Positions 2,735-24,991 of a stretch of 64,000 nucleotides of DNA are shown in pieces (positions within the stretch are counted from its first letter, which is position 1; each line of letters starts with the position of its first letter). The notes below the pieces were generated by a model. The model worked only from the letters and a program-made list of their open reading frames with translations. It searched no databases and was not told the DNA's origin. Position numbers and translations under genes: made by a program. Where the stretch lies: contig LADW01000001.1 of assembly GCA_000961695.1 (NCBI GenBank), forward strand, positions 1 through 64,000, written 5' to 3'. The DNA comes from Hyphomonadaceae bacterium BRH_c29 (GTDB lineage: Bacteria > Pseudomonadota > Alphaproteobacteria > Caulobacterales > Hyphomonadaceae).

Positions 2735-2818
2735 AGACGGCGCCCACACTGGGACCATCTGCCGCCGCGTCAAACCGGAGAGTTCACCTCCAGGCTCAAA
2801 CCGACTAAGGGAAGGGCC

Positions 2819-3988
2819 ATGAACCCGCCCCCCCTTGCTCCGCCGCACTCCAGCTTCACCCCGAAAGTCGCCATACTCGGCGCGGGCATTATTGGCCTCG
2901 CGGTGGCGTTCGAGCTGGCCATCAAGCGCGGCGTCCCCGTCACCATCTATGATCCGGCTCCCATGGGGCGCGGCGCAAGCTGGGCCGCTGCAGGCATGCT
3001 GGCCCCTGCTTTCGAGGCCGCTGCCGAAGAAGGCGTGCACCCTCACCTGTTCGATCTCTGCATGGAGGGCGCGGAACTCTGGCCGGACTTCTCCATCGAT
3101 CTTGCTCACGCAGCCGATGCGGAGTCTGGCTATAGTGGCCGGCCTTCTCTGGCGCTGGCCTTCGACATGGCTGAGACCGCCGCAATGCACAAACTGGCCC
3201 GGGCGCTGGACGCGCGCGGCATTGCACATGAAGAACTTCCCCCCGGCACCGCGCACCTGCTGGAGCCATCGCTTGCACCAGACCTGGTCGCCGCGCTTCA
3301 GATGCCGACCGACGGACAAGTCGACAATCGCGCCGTCGTCCGTGCCCTGATCATGGCCCTGCAGCGTAGCCCGCTGGCCACGCTGCGCAGCGAGGCGGCG
3401 CCCCTGCGCAGCGTCGGCGGACGGCTCTCGCTGGAGGGTCACGACCTGATCCTCGCCGCTGCTGGCTGGAGCACAGCCGCCATCAAGGTGGAAGAGAACG
3501 GCGAACGGCTCAGCCTCGTGAACTGGGACCCGGCGCTGGACGAGATCGATTGCTATGGCGGCCAGATGCTATCCGTCGCACATGGTTATGGATCACCGGA
3601 AACCACGCTGCGCTGCGGCACGATCTATATCGCCCCAAAGGCCGACCGCGTGATCATCGGCGCCACGGTTGAGCCCGGCGTCGCCACCGAAGCACCAGAG
3701 CCCGCGGCGATCTCGGCGCTGCTGGCCCGTGCCGCGCGCCTCTGTCCTGTTCTGGCAGACCTGCCGATCATCGAGACCTGGGCCGGCATCCGCCCTGGCA
3801 CGCGGGACCGCGCACCCCTGATCGGAGAGACTGCAGTACCGGGCCTTTATGTTGCCTCCGGCCACTTCCGGAATGGTATCCTGCTCGCCCCGATCACGGC
3901 ACGGATCATTGCTGATATGATGCTGGGCAAGCCGATGAGCGAGCTCCATCAGAGCTTCTCGCCGAGCCGTATCGGCGCAGTCGCATAA
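2819..3988 (+). CDS. thiO: Glycine oxidase-type FAD-dependent oxidoreductase ThiO
   Basis: This 389-residue flavoenzyme of the DAO family oxidises glycine to iminoglycine for the thiazole half of thiamine. The dinucleotide-binding motif GAGIIGLAVAFEL is at about residues 21-33, followed by the ThiO-typical GASWAAAGMLAP segment. The C-terminal GHFRNGILLAPITA at about residues 352-365 is the family signature near the flavin and substrate. The start ATG at 2819 has AAGGGAAGG upstream. The usual partners thiS, thiG and thiE are not next to it, and I see no TPP riboswitch in the short leader, so regulation by thiamine is not evident here. Length is normal for the family; assignment to ThiO rather than another D-amino-acid oxidase rests on the two signature segments. 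Confidence 0.85.
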   Translation: MNPPPLAPPHSSFTPKVAILGAGIIGLAVAFELAIKRGVPVTIYDPAPMGRGASWAAAGMLAPAFEAAAEEGVHPHLFDLCMEGAELWPDFSIDLAHAADAESGYSGRPSLALAFDMAETAAMHKLARALDARGIAHEELPPGTAHLLEPSLAPDLVAALQMPTDGQVDNRAVVRALIMALQRSPLATLRSEAAPLRSVGGRLSLEGHDLILAAAGWSTAAIKVEENGERLSLVNWDPALDEIDCYGGQMLSVAHGYGSPETTLRCGTIYIAPKADRVIIGATVEPGVATEAPEPAAISALLARAARLCPVLADLPIIETWAGIRPGTRDRAPLIGETAVPGLYVASGHFRNGILLAPITARIIADMMLGKPMSELHQSFSPSRIGAVA

Positions 3989-4147
3989 TAAGAACGCTCC
4001 CGAAAATTTTCCCAAACGCTTGCAATGGCGCGTCCGTCCCTCTAAGTCGGCGCCTCGGACGAGCCCCGCCCGAAAGCAAAAGGAAGCCCGAAATGAAGAA
4101 CGCGCCGCACCTCACCCTGCGTCTCCCTCTCATGTCCCGGACCTCCC

Positions 4148-5728
4148 ATGACCAGCTTTCTCACGCTCGATTCCCTATCCCTCTCCACGCCTGACGGCAC
4201 ACCGCTTTTCCGTGGCCTGACGCTCTCGCTCGGCCGCGAGCGGGTCGGCCTTGTCGGCCGCAATGGCTGTGGCAAGTCCACGCTGCTACGCGCCATTGTG
4301 GGCGAAGTGGCCATCACTTCCGGCAGTATCCACCTGCCCGGCCGTGCCGGCATGCTGCAGCAATCGCTGGACGAAACACTGGACCTCGCCGGCGCGCTCG
4401 GCCTGACCGAAGCCCTCGCCTGTCTTGACCGGTTGGAGCGCGGCGAAGGCAGCGTTGAGGATGCCGCTGAGGCAGACTGGACGCTGCCCACCCGTATCGA
4501 ACAGGCCCTCGCGGACACCGGCCTACAGAACGTTCCTCTCAACACAAGCATCGCGCCCCTCAGCGGCGGCGAACGCATGCGCGTCGCCCTCGCCCGCCAG
4601 CTTCTGGATGCGCCGGATCTCCTCCTGCTGGACGAGCCGACCAACAATCTGGATACGGATGGCCGAAAGGCCGTGATGAACCTGATCCGCACCTGGCCGG
4701 GCGGCCTGCTGATCGCCAGCCATGACCGCGACCTGCTGGAACGGGTCGACCGCATCGTCGAACTCTCCCCCATCGACACGGTGATCTTCTCCGGCGGCTG
4801 GAGCGCGTTCGCTGAAGCGCGCGAAGCGGCCCGGGAGGCAGCAGAATCAGATTTCGCCCGCGCCAGCGACGCCCACAAACGCACACGCCAGAATGCCCAG
4901 CTCGCACGGGAGTGCCAGGACAAGCGCGACAAGGCGGGCCGCGTCACACGCGCCAGAAGCGACGCCCCGAAAATGCTGCTCGACAAAAGGCAGGAGCGCG
5001 CCGAAGCCTCTCGCGGCAAGGGCAGCATTCTCGCCGCGCGCCAGCTGTCCGAAGTTCAAGACGGCCTCAATGCCGCCCGCGCGCGCGTCGAAATCCTTAC
5101 GCCGATCACGATGGACCTGCCAAAGTGCGGCCTGCCCTCCGGGCGCCGCCTGATCGATTTCCGGGGCGTGGCGATGGCGTTCGGTGACCGCCGCCTGTTC
5201 GGCCCGCTGGACTTCCAGCTGACAGGGCCGGAACGGGTCGCCGTGGCCGGGCCGAACGGGTCCGGCAAGTCGACCTTCCTGCGCCTCGTTACCGGCGCGC
5301 TCGCCCCGACCGCAGGCACAGCCACACGCCTCATCGAAAACTTCGCCCTGCTCGACCAGCATGTCAGTCTGTTGGGCGCGGGCGAGACCATTCTGGACAA
5401 CATGCACCGGCTGAACCCCGGCCTGTCGGACAATGTGGCCCATGCCGCGCTCGCCCGGTTCGGCTTCCGCAACAGGGATGCCTTGCAGGTTACCGGCACG
5501 CTGAGCGGCGGGGAGCAGCTGCGCGCCGGTCTTGCCTGCGCCTTCGCCCGGCCAGCGCCGCCGGAACTGCTGATCCTGGACGAACCGACCAACCACCTCG
5601 AACTGCGCGCCGTGGAAGCCCTTGAGACCGCCCTCAGCGCCTATGACGGCGCGGTGCTGGTCGTCAGCCACGACACGGCCTTCCTGAAGGCCATTGGCGT
5701 CACGCGCACGCTCGCCCTTCCGGATTGA
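4148..5728 (+). CDS. ABC-F family ATPase
   Basis: This is a soluble 526-residue protein with two ATP-binding cassettes and no membrane segments, the layout of ABC-F translation factors (Uup/YheS/EttA relatives) that act on the ribosome. Walker A motifs are GRNGCGKST (37-45) and GPNGSGKST (about 367-375). Signature motifs are LSGGERMRVALARQ and LSGGEQLRAGLA, and Walker B motifs are LLLLDEPTNNLD and LLILDEPTNHLE. The charged, Arg/Lys/Ala-rich interdomain stretch at about 225-310 corresponds to the P-site tRNA-interaction motif linker. Only a weak ribosome site precedes ATG 4148. The 159 bp between thiO and this gene hold nothing I can name. The subfamily cannot be fixed by eye. Confidence 0.9.
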   Translation: MTSFLTLDSLSLSTPDGTPLFRGLTLSLGRERVGLVGRNGCGKSTLLRAIVGEVAITSGSIHLPGRAGMLQQSLDETLDLAGALGLTEALACLDRLERGEGSVEDAAEADWTLPTRIEQALADTGLQNVPLNTSIAPLSGGERMRVALARQLLDAPDLLLLDEPTNNLDTDGRKAVMNLIRTWPGGLLIASHDRDLLERVDRIVELSPIDTVIFSGGWSAFAEAREAAREAAESDFARASDAHKRTRQNAQLARECQDKRDKAGRVTRARSDAPKMLLDKRQERAEASRGKGSILAARQLSEVQDGLNAARARVEILTPITMDLPKCGLPSGRRLIDFRGVAMAFGDRRLFGPLDFQLTGPERVAVAGPNGSGKSTFLRLVTGALAPTAGTATRLIENFALLDQHVSLLGAGETILDNMHRLNPGLSDNVAHAALARFGFRNRDALQVTGTLSGGEQLRAGLACAFARPAPPELLILDEPTNHLELRAVEALETALSAYDGAVLVVSHDTAFLKAIGVTRTLALPD

Positions 5729-5776
5729 CAGTGTGCACAGGAGCAGGTGCTTGACTCTCCGGTTTTGCAAGTTATC

Positions 5777-5804
5777 TTGTATTGCAAGATTACATGCGAT
5801 ACAA
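5777..5804. promoter_or_regulatory. 28-bp dyad, probable PadR operator
   Basis: TTGTATTGC and GCGATACAA form an inverted repeat matching at 8 of 9 positions, separated by 10 bp. An overlapping ATCTTG-tattg-CAAGAT repeat lies at 5774-5790. The dyad ends two bases before the proposed padR start codon at 5807, so a bound repressor would cover the promoter or initiation region. PadR proteins usually bind TGTAT-type dyads in their own promoter, which fits autoregulation. Confidence 0.6.
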
Positions 5805-5806
5805 AT

Positions 5807-6172
5807 ATGGCAAGAGACGCAAAGCGGACCGGAAACCGGCGCACGCAGATGAACAAGGGTGTGGTGGAGCTTGCCCTCCTCTCCATCCTGCGGGAACGCG
5901 CCCATTACGGGCTCGAAATCCTCGACCGGATGAACGGCGAGGTCGGGCTCGAAGTGGCGGACGGCACGATCTATCCGCTGCTGCACCGTATGGAGACGGG
6001 CGGTTTCATCACCTCGGAATGGGTGATCGAGCCGGACCACGCCCGTCCCCGCAAATATTACGCCCTGACGGTGCAGGGCCGTGCCGAACTCCGGGCCATG
6101 GCCACAGAGTGGCGCGACCTCAGCAAACGGATCAATGCCCTGGTTGGAAAGGCCGGACCGGAAAAGGAATGA
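5807..6172 (+). CDS. PadR family transcriptional regulator
   Basis: This is a small winged-helix repressor of about 121 residues. The N-terminal domain has the PadR pattern ELALLSILRERAHYGLEIL, then DGTIYPLLHRMETGGFI (recognition helix and wing) and PRKYYALTVQGRAEL. The C-terminal helix is short, as in subfamily s1. The start is uncertain: ATG at 5807 lies almost inside the operator dyad and has no Shine-Dalgarno, and the alternative ATG at 5849 (MNKGVVELAL) also lacks one. A longer frame from 5747 would run through the promoter. The next gene begins 4 bp after the stop and encodes a membrane protein with an N-terminal HAAS-like domain, the usual partner of PadR regulators, followed by a CPBP protein. 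Confidence 0.85.
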   Translation: MARDAKRTGNRRTQMNKGVVELALLSILRERAHYGLEILDRMNGEVGLEVADGTIYPLLHRMETGGFITSEWVIEPDHARPRKYYALTVQGRAELRAMATEWRDLSKRINALVGKAGPEKE

Positions 6173-6176
6173 GGCG

Positions 6177-6740
6177 ATGACACAGAAAGAACACCCCCGG
6201 CTCGCGGCCTATGCGCGTGAATTGCGCTGGGCCCTCTCGGCACTGCCGGACGCGGACCGCGACAGCATTGTCGATGAAATGCGCTCCCACGTGCTCGACC
6301 GCGTGGATGCAGGCGCCAGCGTGGAAGATACCCTCGCCGCCCTCGGCCCGGCCGACGATTATGCCAGCGCCTTCCGCGATGCCTATACGGTCGCCACCTC
6401 GCTATCCTCCGGCCGCACGCCGCACCTGCTCGGCGCCCTCATGCGCAATGTGGCAAACAGCGTGTCAGCGGCCGTGGCCGGGATTGTCATCCTGGGTGCC
6501 TGGATGTTCACGCTGATGATCGGCAATGTCGCGCTCCTGAAGATCAGCGATCCCGCGCATGTCGGCCTCTGGAAAAGCGATCATTTCTTTTTCATCGGCA
6601 TCATAGACGATCCGTCCACAGGGCGGGAGCTGCTCGGTCCCTGGCTCCTGCCCATCGCGCTGGCCAGTCTCGTGATCTCGCTCCTCCTCACGCGCTGGCT
6701 TGCAGTCTGGGCCCTCAGGCGGATCGCACCCCGCCGCTAG
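6177..6740 (+). CDS. HAAS/DUF1700-like membrane protein
   Basis: This is a 187-residue integral membrane protein partnered with PadR. The N-terminal 75 residues are a soluble helical domain (LAAYARELRWALSALPDADRDSIVDEMRSHVLDR, then VEDTLAALGPADDYA) that matches the HAAS domain often encoded beside padR. Two or three hydrophobic segments follow at about 90-115 and 150-178, and the protein ends in a basic tail RRIAPRR. ATG 6177 is chosen because TGAGG sits 5-9 bases upstream and overlaps the padR stop region. Known HAAS-containing proteins sense or set envelope stress in PadR circuits; the exact role here is unknown. Confidence 0.7.
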   Translation: MTQKEHPRLAAYARELRWALSALPDADRDSIVDEMRSHVLDRVDAGASVEDTLAALGPADDYASAFRDAYTVATSLSSGRTPHLLGALMRNVANSVSAAVAGIVILGAWMFTLMIGNVALLKISDPAHVGLWKSDHFFFIGIIDDPSTGRELLGPWLLPIALASLVISLLLTRWLAVWALRRIAPRR

Positions 6741-6779
6741 GCCTCCCCTCACCCCCAAAACCCTGAAAGGAACTCGCTC

Positions 6780-7685
6780 ATGCTGATGGGCGCTCGCGCA
6801 CTCTCCGTATTCATCGCCAGCCTCCTGCTGACCACATGGGCGATCCAGTTCGCGGGCCTTGTCTTCGTCGGGGACCCGGACGATCCGGCCATGATCCCCT
6901 ACCTGATCGGCTCCATGTTCATGCCGGCCGTCTGGTCACTGGCCTATCTCCTCGTCTTCAACCGCAAGGCCTGGCGCTTTGTCCGGCTCTGGCCGGGCAA
7001 TCCGCTCTGGCTGGTCCTCGGCGCCCTGCTCCCGGCCATGATCGCCTTTGCCGTCCTCACCATCTGCGAGATCGCTGGCTGGGGCAGCTCTTCCTATTTC
7101 ACCTTCTCCGGCACAGGCGCGGACATCCTGAAGGGACCGTGGACGCTCGGCACCGGCGAGCAGGACTGGGCCCGCTTCGCCCTCAACATGGCGGCCACCG
7201 CCCTCTTCTTCGCCGTCGTAAATTCCACCGTTGCCATCGGCGAGGAATTCGGCTGGCGCGGCCACCTGCAGCATCACATGATCGCCCGCCTCGGCGCGGT
7301 CCGCGGCATTGCCGTGCTCGGCGTCATCTGGGCCATGTGGCACCTGCCGATGAACCTCGCAGGCTACAATTACGGCCAGGCGCCGCTACTCGGTGCGCTG
7401 GTCCTGTTCCCACTCCAGCTTGTCGCCATGTCCTTCATCATGGCCTGGCTCACCCTGCGCGCCCGCAGCTTTTGGCCGGCCGTCCTCCTGCACGGCTCGG
7501 GCAACGGCATCGAGGAAGGGGTCGTTTCCAGCATTGCGGTGCAGGCGGGCGTGGACCCGATGACCGCCAGCTATCTGCAACTGGGCGTGACGATCCTGCT
7601 TGGCCTCGTCTGCCTTGCGGCAATGCTGTCCCAGCGTGACTCTGGACGTGCCGCCCCGGCCGGAATAAGTCTCCCGCCAGACTGA
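6780..7685 (+). CDS. CPBP family intramembrane glutamic endopeptidase
   Basis: This is a 301-residue polytopic membrane protein of the CPBP (Abi/Rce1-like) family. The diagnostic EExxxR motif is GEEFGWRGHL at about residues 155-164, the second motif has the pair of histidines in MWHLPMN at about 188, and the third motif is LLHGSGN near 240. About eight hydrophobic segments are visible. AAAGGA lies 8 bases before ATG 6780. It follows the PadR/HAAS pair by 39 bp, so the three probably form one PadR-controlled operon. Members process prenylated or membrane peptides or are bacteriocin-immunity-like; the substrate cannot be inferred from the sequence. Confidence 0.85.
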   Translation: MLMGARALSVFIASLLLTTWAIQFAGLVFVGDPDDPAMIPYLIGSMFMPAVWSLAYLLVFNRKAWRFVRLWPGNPLWLVLGALLPAMIAFAVLTICEIAGWGSSSYFTFSGTGADILKGPWTLGTGEQDWARFALNMAATALFFAVVNSTVAIGEEFGWRGHLQHHMIARLGAVRGIAVLGVIWAMWHLPMNLAGYNYGQAPLLGALVLFPLQLVAMSFIMAWLTLRARSFWPAVLLHGSGNGIEEGVVSSIAVQAGVDPMTASYLQLGVTILLGLVCLAAMLSQRDSGRAAPAGISLPPD

Positions 7686-23351: not shown

Positions 23352-23789
23352 CTATTCCTCGCCGCGCTCAACACCGCCGCGCAGGGATTTGATTTCGCCC
23401 CGGTGCTTCTTGGAGGCAATCCGGCGGCGCACGCTGCCCTGGGTCGGTTTGGTCCGGATCCGGCGCTTGGGTTTCACGCTGGCCTTGAGAATCATCTCGG
23501 CAAGGCGTTTGCGGGCCGCTTCACGGTTCATCACCTGACTGCGATGGCTGCTGGCCTCAAGGATCAGGCGCCCGTCATTGGTCATCCGGCTGCCGAACAG
23601 CGTCATGAACCGGGCCTTTACGTCAGCCGGCAGGGACGAGGCCTCGACGTGCCAGGTCAGCTGGACGGCGGTGGAGACTTTATTGACGTGCTGCCCGCCG
23701 GGGCCGGACGCCCTGACAAAGGCCTCCGACAGCTCCCAGGCCGGTACAACAAGGGCTTCCGATACGCGAAGATCGCCAAACTCGGACAT
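23352..23789 (-). CDS. arfB: Alternative ribosome-rescue factor ArfB
   Basis: ArfB (YaeJ/ICT1 type) hydrolyses peptidyl-tRNA on ribosomes stalled without a stop codon. The 145-residue product has the catalytic GGQ loop in ASGPGGQHVNKVSTAVQL at about 28-45. It also has the long basic C-terminal tail (KPKRRIRTKPTQGSVRRRIASKKHRGEIKSLRGG) that enters the mRNA channel. It lacks the anticodon-recognition domain of release factors, as expected. It converges with marR, leaving 3 bp between the stops. Confidence 0.93.
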   Translation of the reverse strand: MSEFGDLRVSEALVVPAWELSEAFVRASGPGGQHVNKVSTAVQLTWHVEASSLPADVKARFMTLFGSRMTNDGRLILEASSHRSQVMNREAARKRLAEMILKASVKPKRRIRTKPTQGSVRRRIASKKHRGEIKSLRGGVERGEE

Positions 23790-23925: not shown

Positions 23926-24513
23926 ATGAAACTGATGAACACATTCGGAAAAGCCCTGGCGGCCTTCGCCGTTGCTGGCCTGACCATCGCTCCGATTGCA
24001 AGCGCCGATCCTGGCCGTGGAGACCGGGGCGGGGATCGTGGTGGATATGATCGTGGTGACCGTGGGCACGACCGGGGTGACCGTGGGCATGATCGTGGTG
24101 ATCGTGGACACGATCGTGGAGATCGTCGCGATTATCGCGGTGACCGTCATGACTACCGCGGTGACCATAGACGCTATGACCGCCACGACTATCGCCCGCC
24201 GCGCTATGCCTATCGTGCGCCGCCACGTCGTTATTACGCGCCCCCGCCGCGCTATTACGGCGGCTATGCCACCTACGGCTACGCGACCGGCCCTTACTAT
24301 AGCACGGGCTACATCTCGCCTTACCGGGTTGGCGGCTATTACCGTCCGCACCCCCGCACCGTGTATATCCGTGATTACGACCAATACGGCCTGTATGCCC
24401 CGCCGACCGGCTATTACTGGGCACGCGATTATGACCGCGGGGATGCGATCCTCGCCTCGGTCGCGACAGGCGCCATCATTGGCCTCGTCGTAGGTGCCCT
24501 CGCGTACGATTAA
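23926..24513 (+). CDS. RcnB-like secreted Arg/Asp/Gly/Tyr-rich protein
   Basis: This is a 195-residue exported protein. The signal peptide MKLMNTFGKALAAFAVAGLTIAPIASA ends near 27. A highly biased region (about 29-75) follows, made of RGDRGHD-type heptads, then a Tyr/Pro-rich stretch (RYAYRAPPRRYYAPPPRYYGG). The C-terminal YIRDYDQYGLYAPPTGYYWARDYDRGDAILA is the RcnB-family motif (periplasmic nickel/cobalt homeostasis in E. coli). It ends with a hydrophobic glycine-zipper-like GAIIGLVVGAL. The metal role is a family inference; the repeats may bind cations or polyanions. A strong terminator follows at 24543. Confidence 0.75.
   Translation: MKLMNTFGKALAAFAVAGLTIAPIASADPGRGDRGGDRGGYDRGDRGHDRGDRGHDRGDRGHDRGDRRDYRGDRHDYRGDHRRYDRHDYRPPRYAYRAPPRRYYAPPPRYYGGYATYGYATGPYYSTGYISPYRVGGYYRPHPRTVYIRDYDQYGLYAPPTGYYWARDYDRGDAILASVATGAIIGLVVGALAYD
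24026..24150 (+). repeat. Tandem coding repeats in the RcnB-like gene
   Basis: At least three 21-bp units encode RGDRGHD in succession, flanked by degenerate copies (DRGGYDRGD, DRRDYRGDRHDYRGD). Copies differ at third positions, so this is an older expansion rather than a fresh duplication. Confidence 0.7.
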
Positions 24514-24542: not shown

Positions 24543-24578
24543 AACGCCCGGATGTCTTCCCGGCATCCGGGCGTTTTT
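24543..24578 (+). terminator. Rho-independent terminator after the RcnB-like gene
   Basis: Perfect 12-bp arms AACGCCCGGATG / CATCCGGGCGTT enclose a 9-base loop, followed by TTTTT. It lies 30 bp after the stop at 24513. Confidence 0.9.
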
Positions 24579-24663
24579 CATTCATCCCCGGAATTTCGGC
24601 CAAAAAGTCACGTTCTTAACTTTTCGCTGGCGCAAATCATGCTTACTTTCTCCCTGTCTGGGG

Positions 24664-24695
24664 TGGTCCCGGACCAAGTACGCGCCTGTAGCGCG
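24664..24695 (+). promoter_or_regulatory. Tandem hairpins in the leader of the 26-codon ORF
   Basis: TGGTC-ccg-GACCA (24664-24676) and CGCGC-ctgta-GCGCG (24681-24695) are adjacent small hairpins directly before the Shine-Dalgarno of the short ORF. TGGTCCC at 24664-24670 is also exactly complementary to GGGACCA at 24825-24831, downstream of the ORF and before the terminator. An alternative long-range pairing, as in an attenuator, is therefore possible. Confidence 0.45.
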
Positions 24696-24713
24696 CCTGA
24701 AAGGAGGTGATCC

Positions 24714-24794
24714 ATGTCGAGTGAGAAACCAGGTGAGGCCAAATGGTCCAATTCCTATGGTGTCTGGCTGGAGCAGCCTCCGGTCAGAGCCTAG
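24714..24794 (+). CDS. 26-codon ORF with a complete anti-SD match (leader peptide or small protein)
   Basis: The ORF begins MSSEKPGEAKW and ends EQPPVRA; it has two Trp, one Tyr and no hydrophobic helix. The 14 bases immediately before ATG (24700-24713, AAAGGAGGTGATCC) are fully complementary to the standard 3' end of bacterial 16S rRNA, the strongest possible Shine-Dalgarno. Stop TAG is at 24792. It is followed by a perfect-arm terminator at 24854-24880, and the whole unit lies between two terminators, 198 bp before kdsA. This arrangement fits either a translated leader that controls kdsA or an independent small-protein gene. I do not recognise the peptide; the two Trp codons alone do not make it a trp leader. 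Confidence 0.55.
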   Translation: MSSEKPGEAKWSNSYGVWLEQPPVRA

Positions 24795-24853
24795 AGAATT
24801 TCACCGGCGCGCTGTAACGCCGCCGGGACCATTGTCCTCAAGGGACTCACGGG

Positions 24854-24880
24854 AGCCGCCCTCATCAGGGCGGCTTCTTT
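24854..24880 (+). terminator. Rho-independent terminator or attenuator upstream of kdsA
   Basis: Arms AGCCGCCCT / AGGGCGGCT (9 bp, perfect) with loop catc are followed by TCTTTGATT. It lies 60 bp after the short ORF and 112 bp before the kdsA start, so it either ends the small transcript or attenuates read-through into kdsA. Confidence 0.75.
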
Positions 24881-24991
24881 GATTCTGAGCCCAGATTCTG
24901 GCCCACAACCCGCCCGCGCTGGCGGAAACGGGTTCGCGCGGCGCCGCAATTCGGCTATCTGGCTGCGAAACGCCAACAGGGAGACCCGCCC

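Follow-up and report, generated by a model that had tools for sequence, protein, structure and literature searches.

The small RNA (sRNA) CC2171 of Caulobacter was reportedly described by Landt et al. in 2008. Its family, RF01867, is filed by Rfam as an sRNA gene. Spot 42/SpfP is a dual-function sRNA, that is, a small RNA with a short translated open reading frame (ORF). Another of this kind is rnTrpL/peTrpL (PMC10117765). A different pairing logic is known from Caulobacter, in which CrfA sponges the SisA-D (alphaR8) sRNAs, a type widespread in the class (PMC12559287) and marked by the loop motif CCUCCUCCC (PMC3927594). At the level of peptides, S. meliloti SEP1 is an acidic product of 23 aa, conserved in Rhizobiaceae, with the top translation efficiency of 54 unannotated sORFs (PMC10117765). 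RF01867 itself is named in the Rfam 15 paper and in a table of a Mesorhizobium huakuii paper (PMC5596092), whereas the available passages of PMC5988900, PMC11005374 and PMC5082802 hold nothing on this RNA family; those of PMC4117421 state that two previously predicted ncRNAs, left unnamed there, are translated. Our literature search, whose reach excluded most subscription papers, returned no account of an ORF or a Shine-Dalgarno (SD) sequence in the CC2171 family.

We analysed a window of 64,000 nucleotides from Hyphomonadaceae bacterium BRH_c29 (contig LADW01000001.1, positions 1 to 64,000), in which the element of the first-pass annotation was confirmed; at 24648-24878 it reads as a stand-alone, mRNA-like small-RNA gene. 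Its parts are as follows.

24648-24878, plus strand: putative small-RNA gene, mRNA-like and stand-alone; the 5' start is a guess
24648-24697, plus strand: 5' leader extension with two hairpins, from the alignment fold and pair counts in 28 Hyphomonas sequences
24656-24662/24668-24674, plus strand: leader hairpin H1 (GTCTGGG/CCCGGAC)
24681-24685/24691-24695, plus strand: leader hairpin H2
24699-24714, plus strand: extended SD block GAAAGGAGGTGATCCA, a 16-nt complement of the 16S rRNA 3' tail, within the core that is repeated at insertions in relatives
24714-24794, plus strand: 26-codon ORF MSSEKPGEAKWSNSYGVWLEQPPVRA, its frame kept, its peptide hardly
24721-24725, plus strand: 5' arm GUGAG of a long-range helix, in ORF codons 3-4, from covariation and also found by RNAalifold
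24749-24801, plus strand: long hairpin spanning the later half of the ORF with its stop codon, tip GGAG-CAGC-CUCC, with some both-side changes in 28 Hyphomonas sequences
24846-24850, plus strand: 3' arm CUCAC of the long-range helix, directly before the terminator, from covariation
24851-24878, plus strand: Rho-independent terminator of the small RNA, from a terminator scan and RNAalifold

The element resembles CC2171 in that RF01867 aligns with it end to end (model positions 1-159 on 24691-24876, with many non-standard pairs mid-way), and in the CAACAA..GAAAGGAGGUGAUCC-NUG core, the position of the closing helix and the terminator at the end. It differs in its score, 20.5 bits (E 0.018-0.029) against a gathering cut-off of 75 bits, and in its helix sequence, its ATG in place of GTG, its longer middle part and the leader hairpins of its own genus. 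What sets it apart from Spot 42/SpfP and rnTrpL/peTrpL is a peptide that drifts within a conserved frame, together with its class-wide spread. With CrfA and SisA-D the element shares its nature as an alphaproteobacterial small RNA and a pairing logic of the SD-like/anti-SD type, but in the present element a complement of the 16S tail is joined to a start codon and an ORF.

Distribution of the CC2171-like element

Searches at the Rfam gathering threshold reported one tRNA and no RF01867 in the window, and no match in 11 relatives; under strict filters RF01867 found no match in the window's own genome. The model matched 38 of 190 class genomes, seven of them above the cut-off, and 28 of the 30 RF01867 loci returned carry the core with a short ORF, the exceptions being L196, where the stretch may have missed the core, and L218. 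Among its matches are loci with a GUGAG-type helix like that of the window (L214, at 46.2 bits, and L220). The closing-helix columns are homologous between the types, with CAUUG/CAAUG in loci of the CC2171 type where the window has GUGAG/CUCAC, and R1, a model that we built from 52 sequences with both helix types, detects both. Because of the full-length alignment, the score below the cut-off, the intermediate loci and the R1 matches, we treat the window's element as a distant homologue of CC2171 that lies outside the Rfam-curated family; on these sequence comparisons the homology is well supported.

R1 matched 91 of 385 sampled class genomes. Phylum-wide it matched 58 of 299 genomes, all 58 in Alphaproteobacteria, the share of the 299 from outside the class not being listed; the filters in these searches were strict, and members may have been overlooked. 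Of 299 genomes sampled from the order, 63 contain a strict pattern of the core, against none for the reversed control pattern, and at genus level the element is present in 36 of 37 genus genomes (38 of 61 genomes in all). At least 119 contigs carry the exact SD and start motif, under titles that include Hyphomonas, Henriciella, Rhizobium, Rhodospirillaceae, Rhodobacteraceae and Parvularcula. Five of these contigs are titled outside the class: four (L086, L101, L119 and L155, of Acidobacteria type) look mis-titled, because in them a Hyphomonas-type core is followed by kdsA, and the fifth (L145, a metagenome-assembled genome titled Lysobacterales) combines the exact motif with a 21-aa ORF and with the CTCACGG-terminator end, perhaps through transfer or mis-binning. 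The first-pass annotation had tied its candidate to conservation of the SD and the structure in relatives, and both are present across the class.

The element is usually single-copy: no genome among the 299 of the order has two strict cores (G004, which has two, lies outside that draw), and G077 has the element in two places, each with a core. Two assemblies of the genus have a contig that ends inside the element (G027:C67 and G031:C6), where repeats or insertions may have broken the assembly. A phage origin was considered and rejected, as in the two viral contigs with the motif it opens ORFs 346 and 89 aa long, behind a different upstream sequence. Searches with the DNA of the element against plasmids, and with the peptide by tblastn against phages, gave no match.

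Ribosome site, reading frame and folding

The block GAAAGGAGGTGATCCA is complementary, without mismatch, to 16 nt of the 16S 3' tail taken from three other genomes of the genus; a pattern for the tail found no match in BRH_c29's own assembly. The complementarity proposed in the first-pass annotation thus stands, its length growing from 14 to 16 nt. The 14-mer has one exact copy in the 3.7 Mb assembly, where about 0.03 would be expected by chance, and two further sites lie at one mismatch. The predicted duplex of GAAAGGAGGTGATCCA with the tail has an energy of -30.4 kcal/mol, compared with -19.9 for the strongest and a median of -8.95 among 46 window ORFs (ATG-started, at least 150 aa). By this predicted energy, 24699-24714 is the strongest SD site in its neighbourhood, and with its own terminator the element is as unusual as had been proposed. 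Among loci found by RF01867 alone (29 of the 30, L196 being left out), the match to GAAAGGAGGTGATCC extends over 15 of 15 nt in 21, 14 in six, 13 in one and 9 in one; in the 146 candidate sites SD conservation is partly by construction, because part of them came from exact-pattern searches. In silico, the SD is only slightly more open than the control (0.45 against 0.41 unpaired). A 16-bp SD duplex might slow clearance of the start site, and this would agree more with sequestration than with rapid translation. Many other relatives have UUCAACAAY or a similar sequence 5' of the SD.

A block of this kind could also act as a sponge for sRNAs with anti-SD loops of the alphaR8/SisA type, as CrfA does in Caulobacter. 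Such sRNAs are widespread in the class, but the block tracks the 16S tail over 15-16 nt, beyond what a CCUCCUCCC loop could pair with, and a sponge would have no need of a start codon and an ORF, so we regard it as improbable.

For the reading frame we used 90 non-redundant sites, those of the 146 that passed a similarity cut; the site pattern was NTG[TA][CA], and an open frame was not required. From the conserved start (76 ATG, 13 GTG, one TTG) the frame is open for 18-35 codons in all 90 loci, in agreement with the 26-codon ORF first noted in the window. The other two frames fall within 17-36 codons in 23 and 13 of 88 loci, and shuffled sequence does so in 31%. The peptide behaves differently from the frame. 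Over eight ORF clusters the variable columns number 84, 89 and 86 at codon positions 1, 2 and 3, with no third-position bias, and median dN/dS runs from 0.64 to 1.54, below 1 in six of the eight, RNA structure restricting what either test can reveal. In Hyphomonas, 28 aligned sequences give a peptide of 26 aa without indels, with 10, 15 and 9 variable columns by codon position and a median dN/dS of about 1.1, compared with 0.68 in both shifted frames. These comparisons suggest that the ORF is selected for openness and its amino-acid sequence is under little or no selection, which makes the abundant small protein of the first-pass annotation doubtful even as the conservation of its frame holds.

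A functional microprotein of roughly 18-31 aa, with the strong SD serving high expression, nevertheless has points in its favour. Start, frame and length are conserved, the peptide begins with MS in 89 and MSSE in 61 of the 90 loci, and EQP recurs near the C-terminal end in 34. Some constraint on the peptide is possible because dN/dS lies below 1 in six of eight clusters and EQP recurs, and RNA structure could produce the same signal; MSSE, whose codons overlap the helix arm, need not be conserved at the protein level. A parallel can be drawn between S. meliloti SEP1 (PMC10117765) and the relative in Rhizobium sp. RU20A, whose product has 23 aa and a pI of 4.05, the likeness being one of length and acidity only. 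Against a microprotein stand the lack of third-position bias and dN/dS values near 1 within clusters, and apart from MS, MSSE and EQP the peptides have little in common across the class. We judge this reading quite unlikely for the family. The peptide matched no known protein family in NCBIfam.

In 19 mostly weak-scoring relatives with a core, the ORFs have 14-56 codons, one being cut at a contig end. Three loci (L269, L276 and L277) combine the same leader and SD with an ORF of 55-56 codons and a signal-peptide-like start, and by sequence some lineages, these for example, may make a true small secreted protein.

As to the RNA itself, the stretch 24630-24885 folds with z = -4.29, none of 200 shuffles being equally stable. 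Terminator-like sites lie at 24559-24571 and 24851-24878 (two found against 0.6 expected from shuffles), and a simple sigma-70 scan for a promoter of the small RNA gave no site. Two alignments were used, one of 28 of the 37 gathered Hyphomonas loci and one of 52 chosen sequences. The long-range helix between the start of the ORF and the terminator (alignment columns 42-46/204-208) is paired in 96.5% of cells, compared with at most 47% in slid controls; four of its five pairs show both-side changes, and one occurs as GC, CG and UA. For the structure tested, which like R1 also contained a doubtful 3-bp helix inside the SD, none of 500 shuffles came up to it in percentage paired, in double-changed cells (41 against 9.1) or in covariation score; on two of the five measures of covariation it did not exceed the shuffles. 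By lineage the helix reads GUGAG/CUCAC, GUCAG/CUGAC or CAUUG/CAAUG (CAUUGUC/GACAAUG). In 30 loci without GTGAG the best helix pairing averages 5.88, against 4.61 with re-dealt partners (maximum 5.47); two of the 90 loci gave no terminator and were left out of this comparison. Because the arm sequences change between lineages while the pairing stays, the helix looks like a kept pairing and not a fixed seed.

This bears on a further alternative, a dual-function base-pairing sRNA that regulates in trans through other loops, for example a CCUC loop in the ORF, with the ORF as a stabilising by-product. Such an sRNA would be at home in a stand-alone gene with a terminator, CC2171 is classed as an sRNA, and a GAGCARCCUC hairpin recurs in many relatives. 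Our alignments, however, show no strongly conserved single-stranded stretch besides the ribosome site, the long-range arms vary in sequence between lineages, and an incidental ORF would not remain open over 18-35 codons in every one of the 90 loci. We therefore consider it unlikely, if still worth keeping in view.

On the 28 Hyphomonas sequences RNAalifold recovered the terminator and the long-range helix, as well as two leader hairpins and the long hairpin that covers the later part of the ORF and its stop codon. Of the cells of H1, 94% are paired and 26 are double-changed; for H2 the values are 100% and 6. The two tandem hairpins first proposed therefore exist, the first of them as GTCTGGG/CCCGGAC and not as TGGTCC/GGACCA. 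The first-pass annotation had also suggested that TGGTCCC pairs with GGGACCA to give mutually exclusive structures. The pairing is present and 9 nt long (24664-24672/24823-24831), with 81% of cells paired, 18 double-changed and slid controls at most 62% in the same 28 sequences; one central pair is broken in 12 of the 28 and the next in seven, and the pairing overlaps hairpin H1. A switch at this place thus has only partial, genus-level support from these comparisons and was not adopted, and the class-wide helix at 24721-24725/24846-24850 is distinct from it.

Neighbouring genes and insertions in the core

The gene downstream of the element in the window matches the DAHP synthetase I family, consistent with the kdsA named in the first-pass annotation, which offered a leader of that gene as one candidate reading of the element. 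By tblastn, kdsA follows in 24 of 199 loci and in none of 74 further regions, only at Hyphomonas-type cores, where it lies at +258 to +334. The 199 loci contain duplicates (L240 is the window; L224 and L274 are one place). The 74 remain of 80 regions after six without a core by pattern were dropped; 20 of the 80, with two of the seven arfB matches given below, were already counted among the 199. In the 63 of the 90 non-redundant loci for which context existed, the nearest large ORF downstream shares the strand of the element in 23 and runs opposite to it in 31 (for the upstream side the counts are 30 and 29), and in three Henriciella loci (L132, L148 and L154) a different gene, on the opposite strand, comes next. 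A leader of kdsA is unlikely because kdsA is limited to Hyphomonas-type cores, strands are mixed and the next gene differs in Henriciella; with a terminator also lying between element and gene in the window, we rejected the kdsA leader or attenuator.

The gene arfB, for a ribosome-rescue hydrolase, lies at 23352-23789 on the minus strand of the window (NCBIfam equivalog). Of the 199 loci, duplicates included, 41 have it near the element, as do eight of 89 non-redundant loci and five of 54 newly fetched regions (seven of 74 with those already counted). Its arrangement varies: in Hyphomonas and Henriciella it lies upstream on the other strand, in Pontivivens, Amaricoccus and four of the five new matches of one family (f27) it follows directly in the same direction, and in G092 it is adjacent and divergent. 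Seven loci (L080, L126, L274, L293, L295, L296 and L300) have it downstream on the same strand, at a distance of up to about 300 nt. These seven, together with the kdsA positions in the 24 Hyphomonas-type loci, are what could be said for a cis-acting leader or attenuator of whichever gene follows, kdsA here and arfB in some relatives; given the mixed downstream strands and the Henriciella loci, we hold it to be very improbable. The proximity of arfB in a few families is a weak hint of a link to ribosome rescue or translation stress, and it may be inherited linkage because arfB was not found near other loci. Upstream of the element, 23926-24513 encodes a secreted-looking protein of 195 aa in which GDRGHDRG repeats occur together with a Pfam RcnB domain.

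Inserts interrupt the element in three genomes of the genus; they are listed here in reverse-complement coordinates.

L035 (G004), 2927-4951: insert of 2.0 kb
L036 (G013), 2816-6043: insert of 3.2 kb
L037 (G025), 3108-7260: insert of 4.2 kb

All three lie in the SD/start-codon core and are bounded by near-identical repeats of 25-29 bp around TGAAAGGAGGTGATYCATGTCGAG, their GC content is lower than that of the fetched region, and they have in common a right end of about 170-220 bp. Their cargo differs. The right copy of the core keeps the 26-codon ORF in each. The G025 insert encodes homologues of Drt3a and Drt3b (PADLOC), the DRT3 anti-phage system; of the other insert proteins, one of 432 aa has no Pfam or PADLOC match, and two of 329 and 169 aa have no match above the cut-off. 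No recombinase was found among the five insert ORFs searched (Pfam and PADLOC, the fifth by PADLOC only). The right end occurs in three of 42 genus genomes and was not found in plasmids. In 20 stretches around mostly weak matches there was no second core, one stretch being without any core.

Ribosome engagement as a possible output

What comparison finds kept is the SD block, an ATG or GTG start, an ORF of about 25 codons, the helix from start to terminator, and the terminator. The constant parts are those that ribosomes see (SD, start and frame) while peptide and helix arms drift, and the simplest function would be ribosome engagement. We thus propose, with a probability of about 0.45, that the element is a stand-alone, usually single-copy, mRNA-like sRNA of an old family that includes CC2171, and that, since its frame is kept while its peptide drifts, its selected output would be ribosome engagement and not the peptide.

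The mechanism that we infer from the sequences would run as follows. 30S subunits would bind the small RNA with very high affinity through pairing of the SD with the tail, and initiation would cover the 5' arm of the long-range helix and open it. Ribosome-bound and closed forms would be mutually exclusive, because initiation at the start codon covers that arm. The short ORF would then allow ribosomes to run off and reload, and the output could be the titration or sensing of free 30S subunits or of initiation capacity, or a ribosome-dependent change in the stability or shape of the RNA. More tentatively, we may be dealing with a class-wide RNA that is translated for translation's sake, one that captures 30S subunits, whose closing helix is opened by initiation, that reads out or buffers initiation capacity with a peptide that is irrelevant, and whose core is constant enough for mobile defence cargo, in one case DRT3, to insert there.

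What is listed as an sRNA family of Caulobacter proves to be spread through the class, and it carries the strongest SD site in its neighbourhood and an ORF under selection for openness but hardly for its peptide. The core as an insertion point for defence genes offers a lead for finding mobile defence cassettes. If ribosome engagement is indeed the selected output, the element would represent a new way for cells to sense or buffer free ribosomes.
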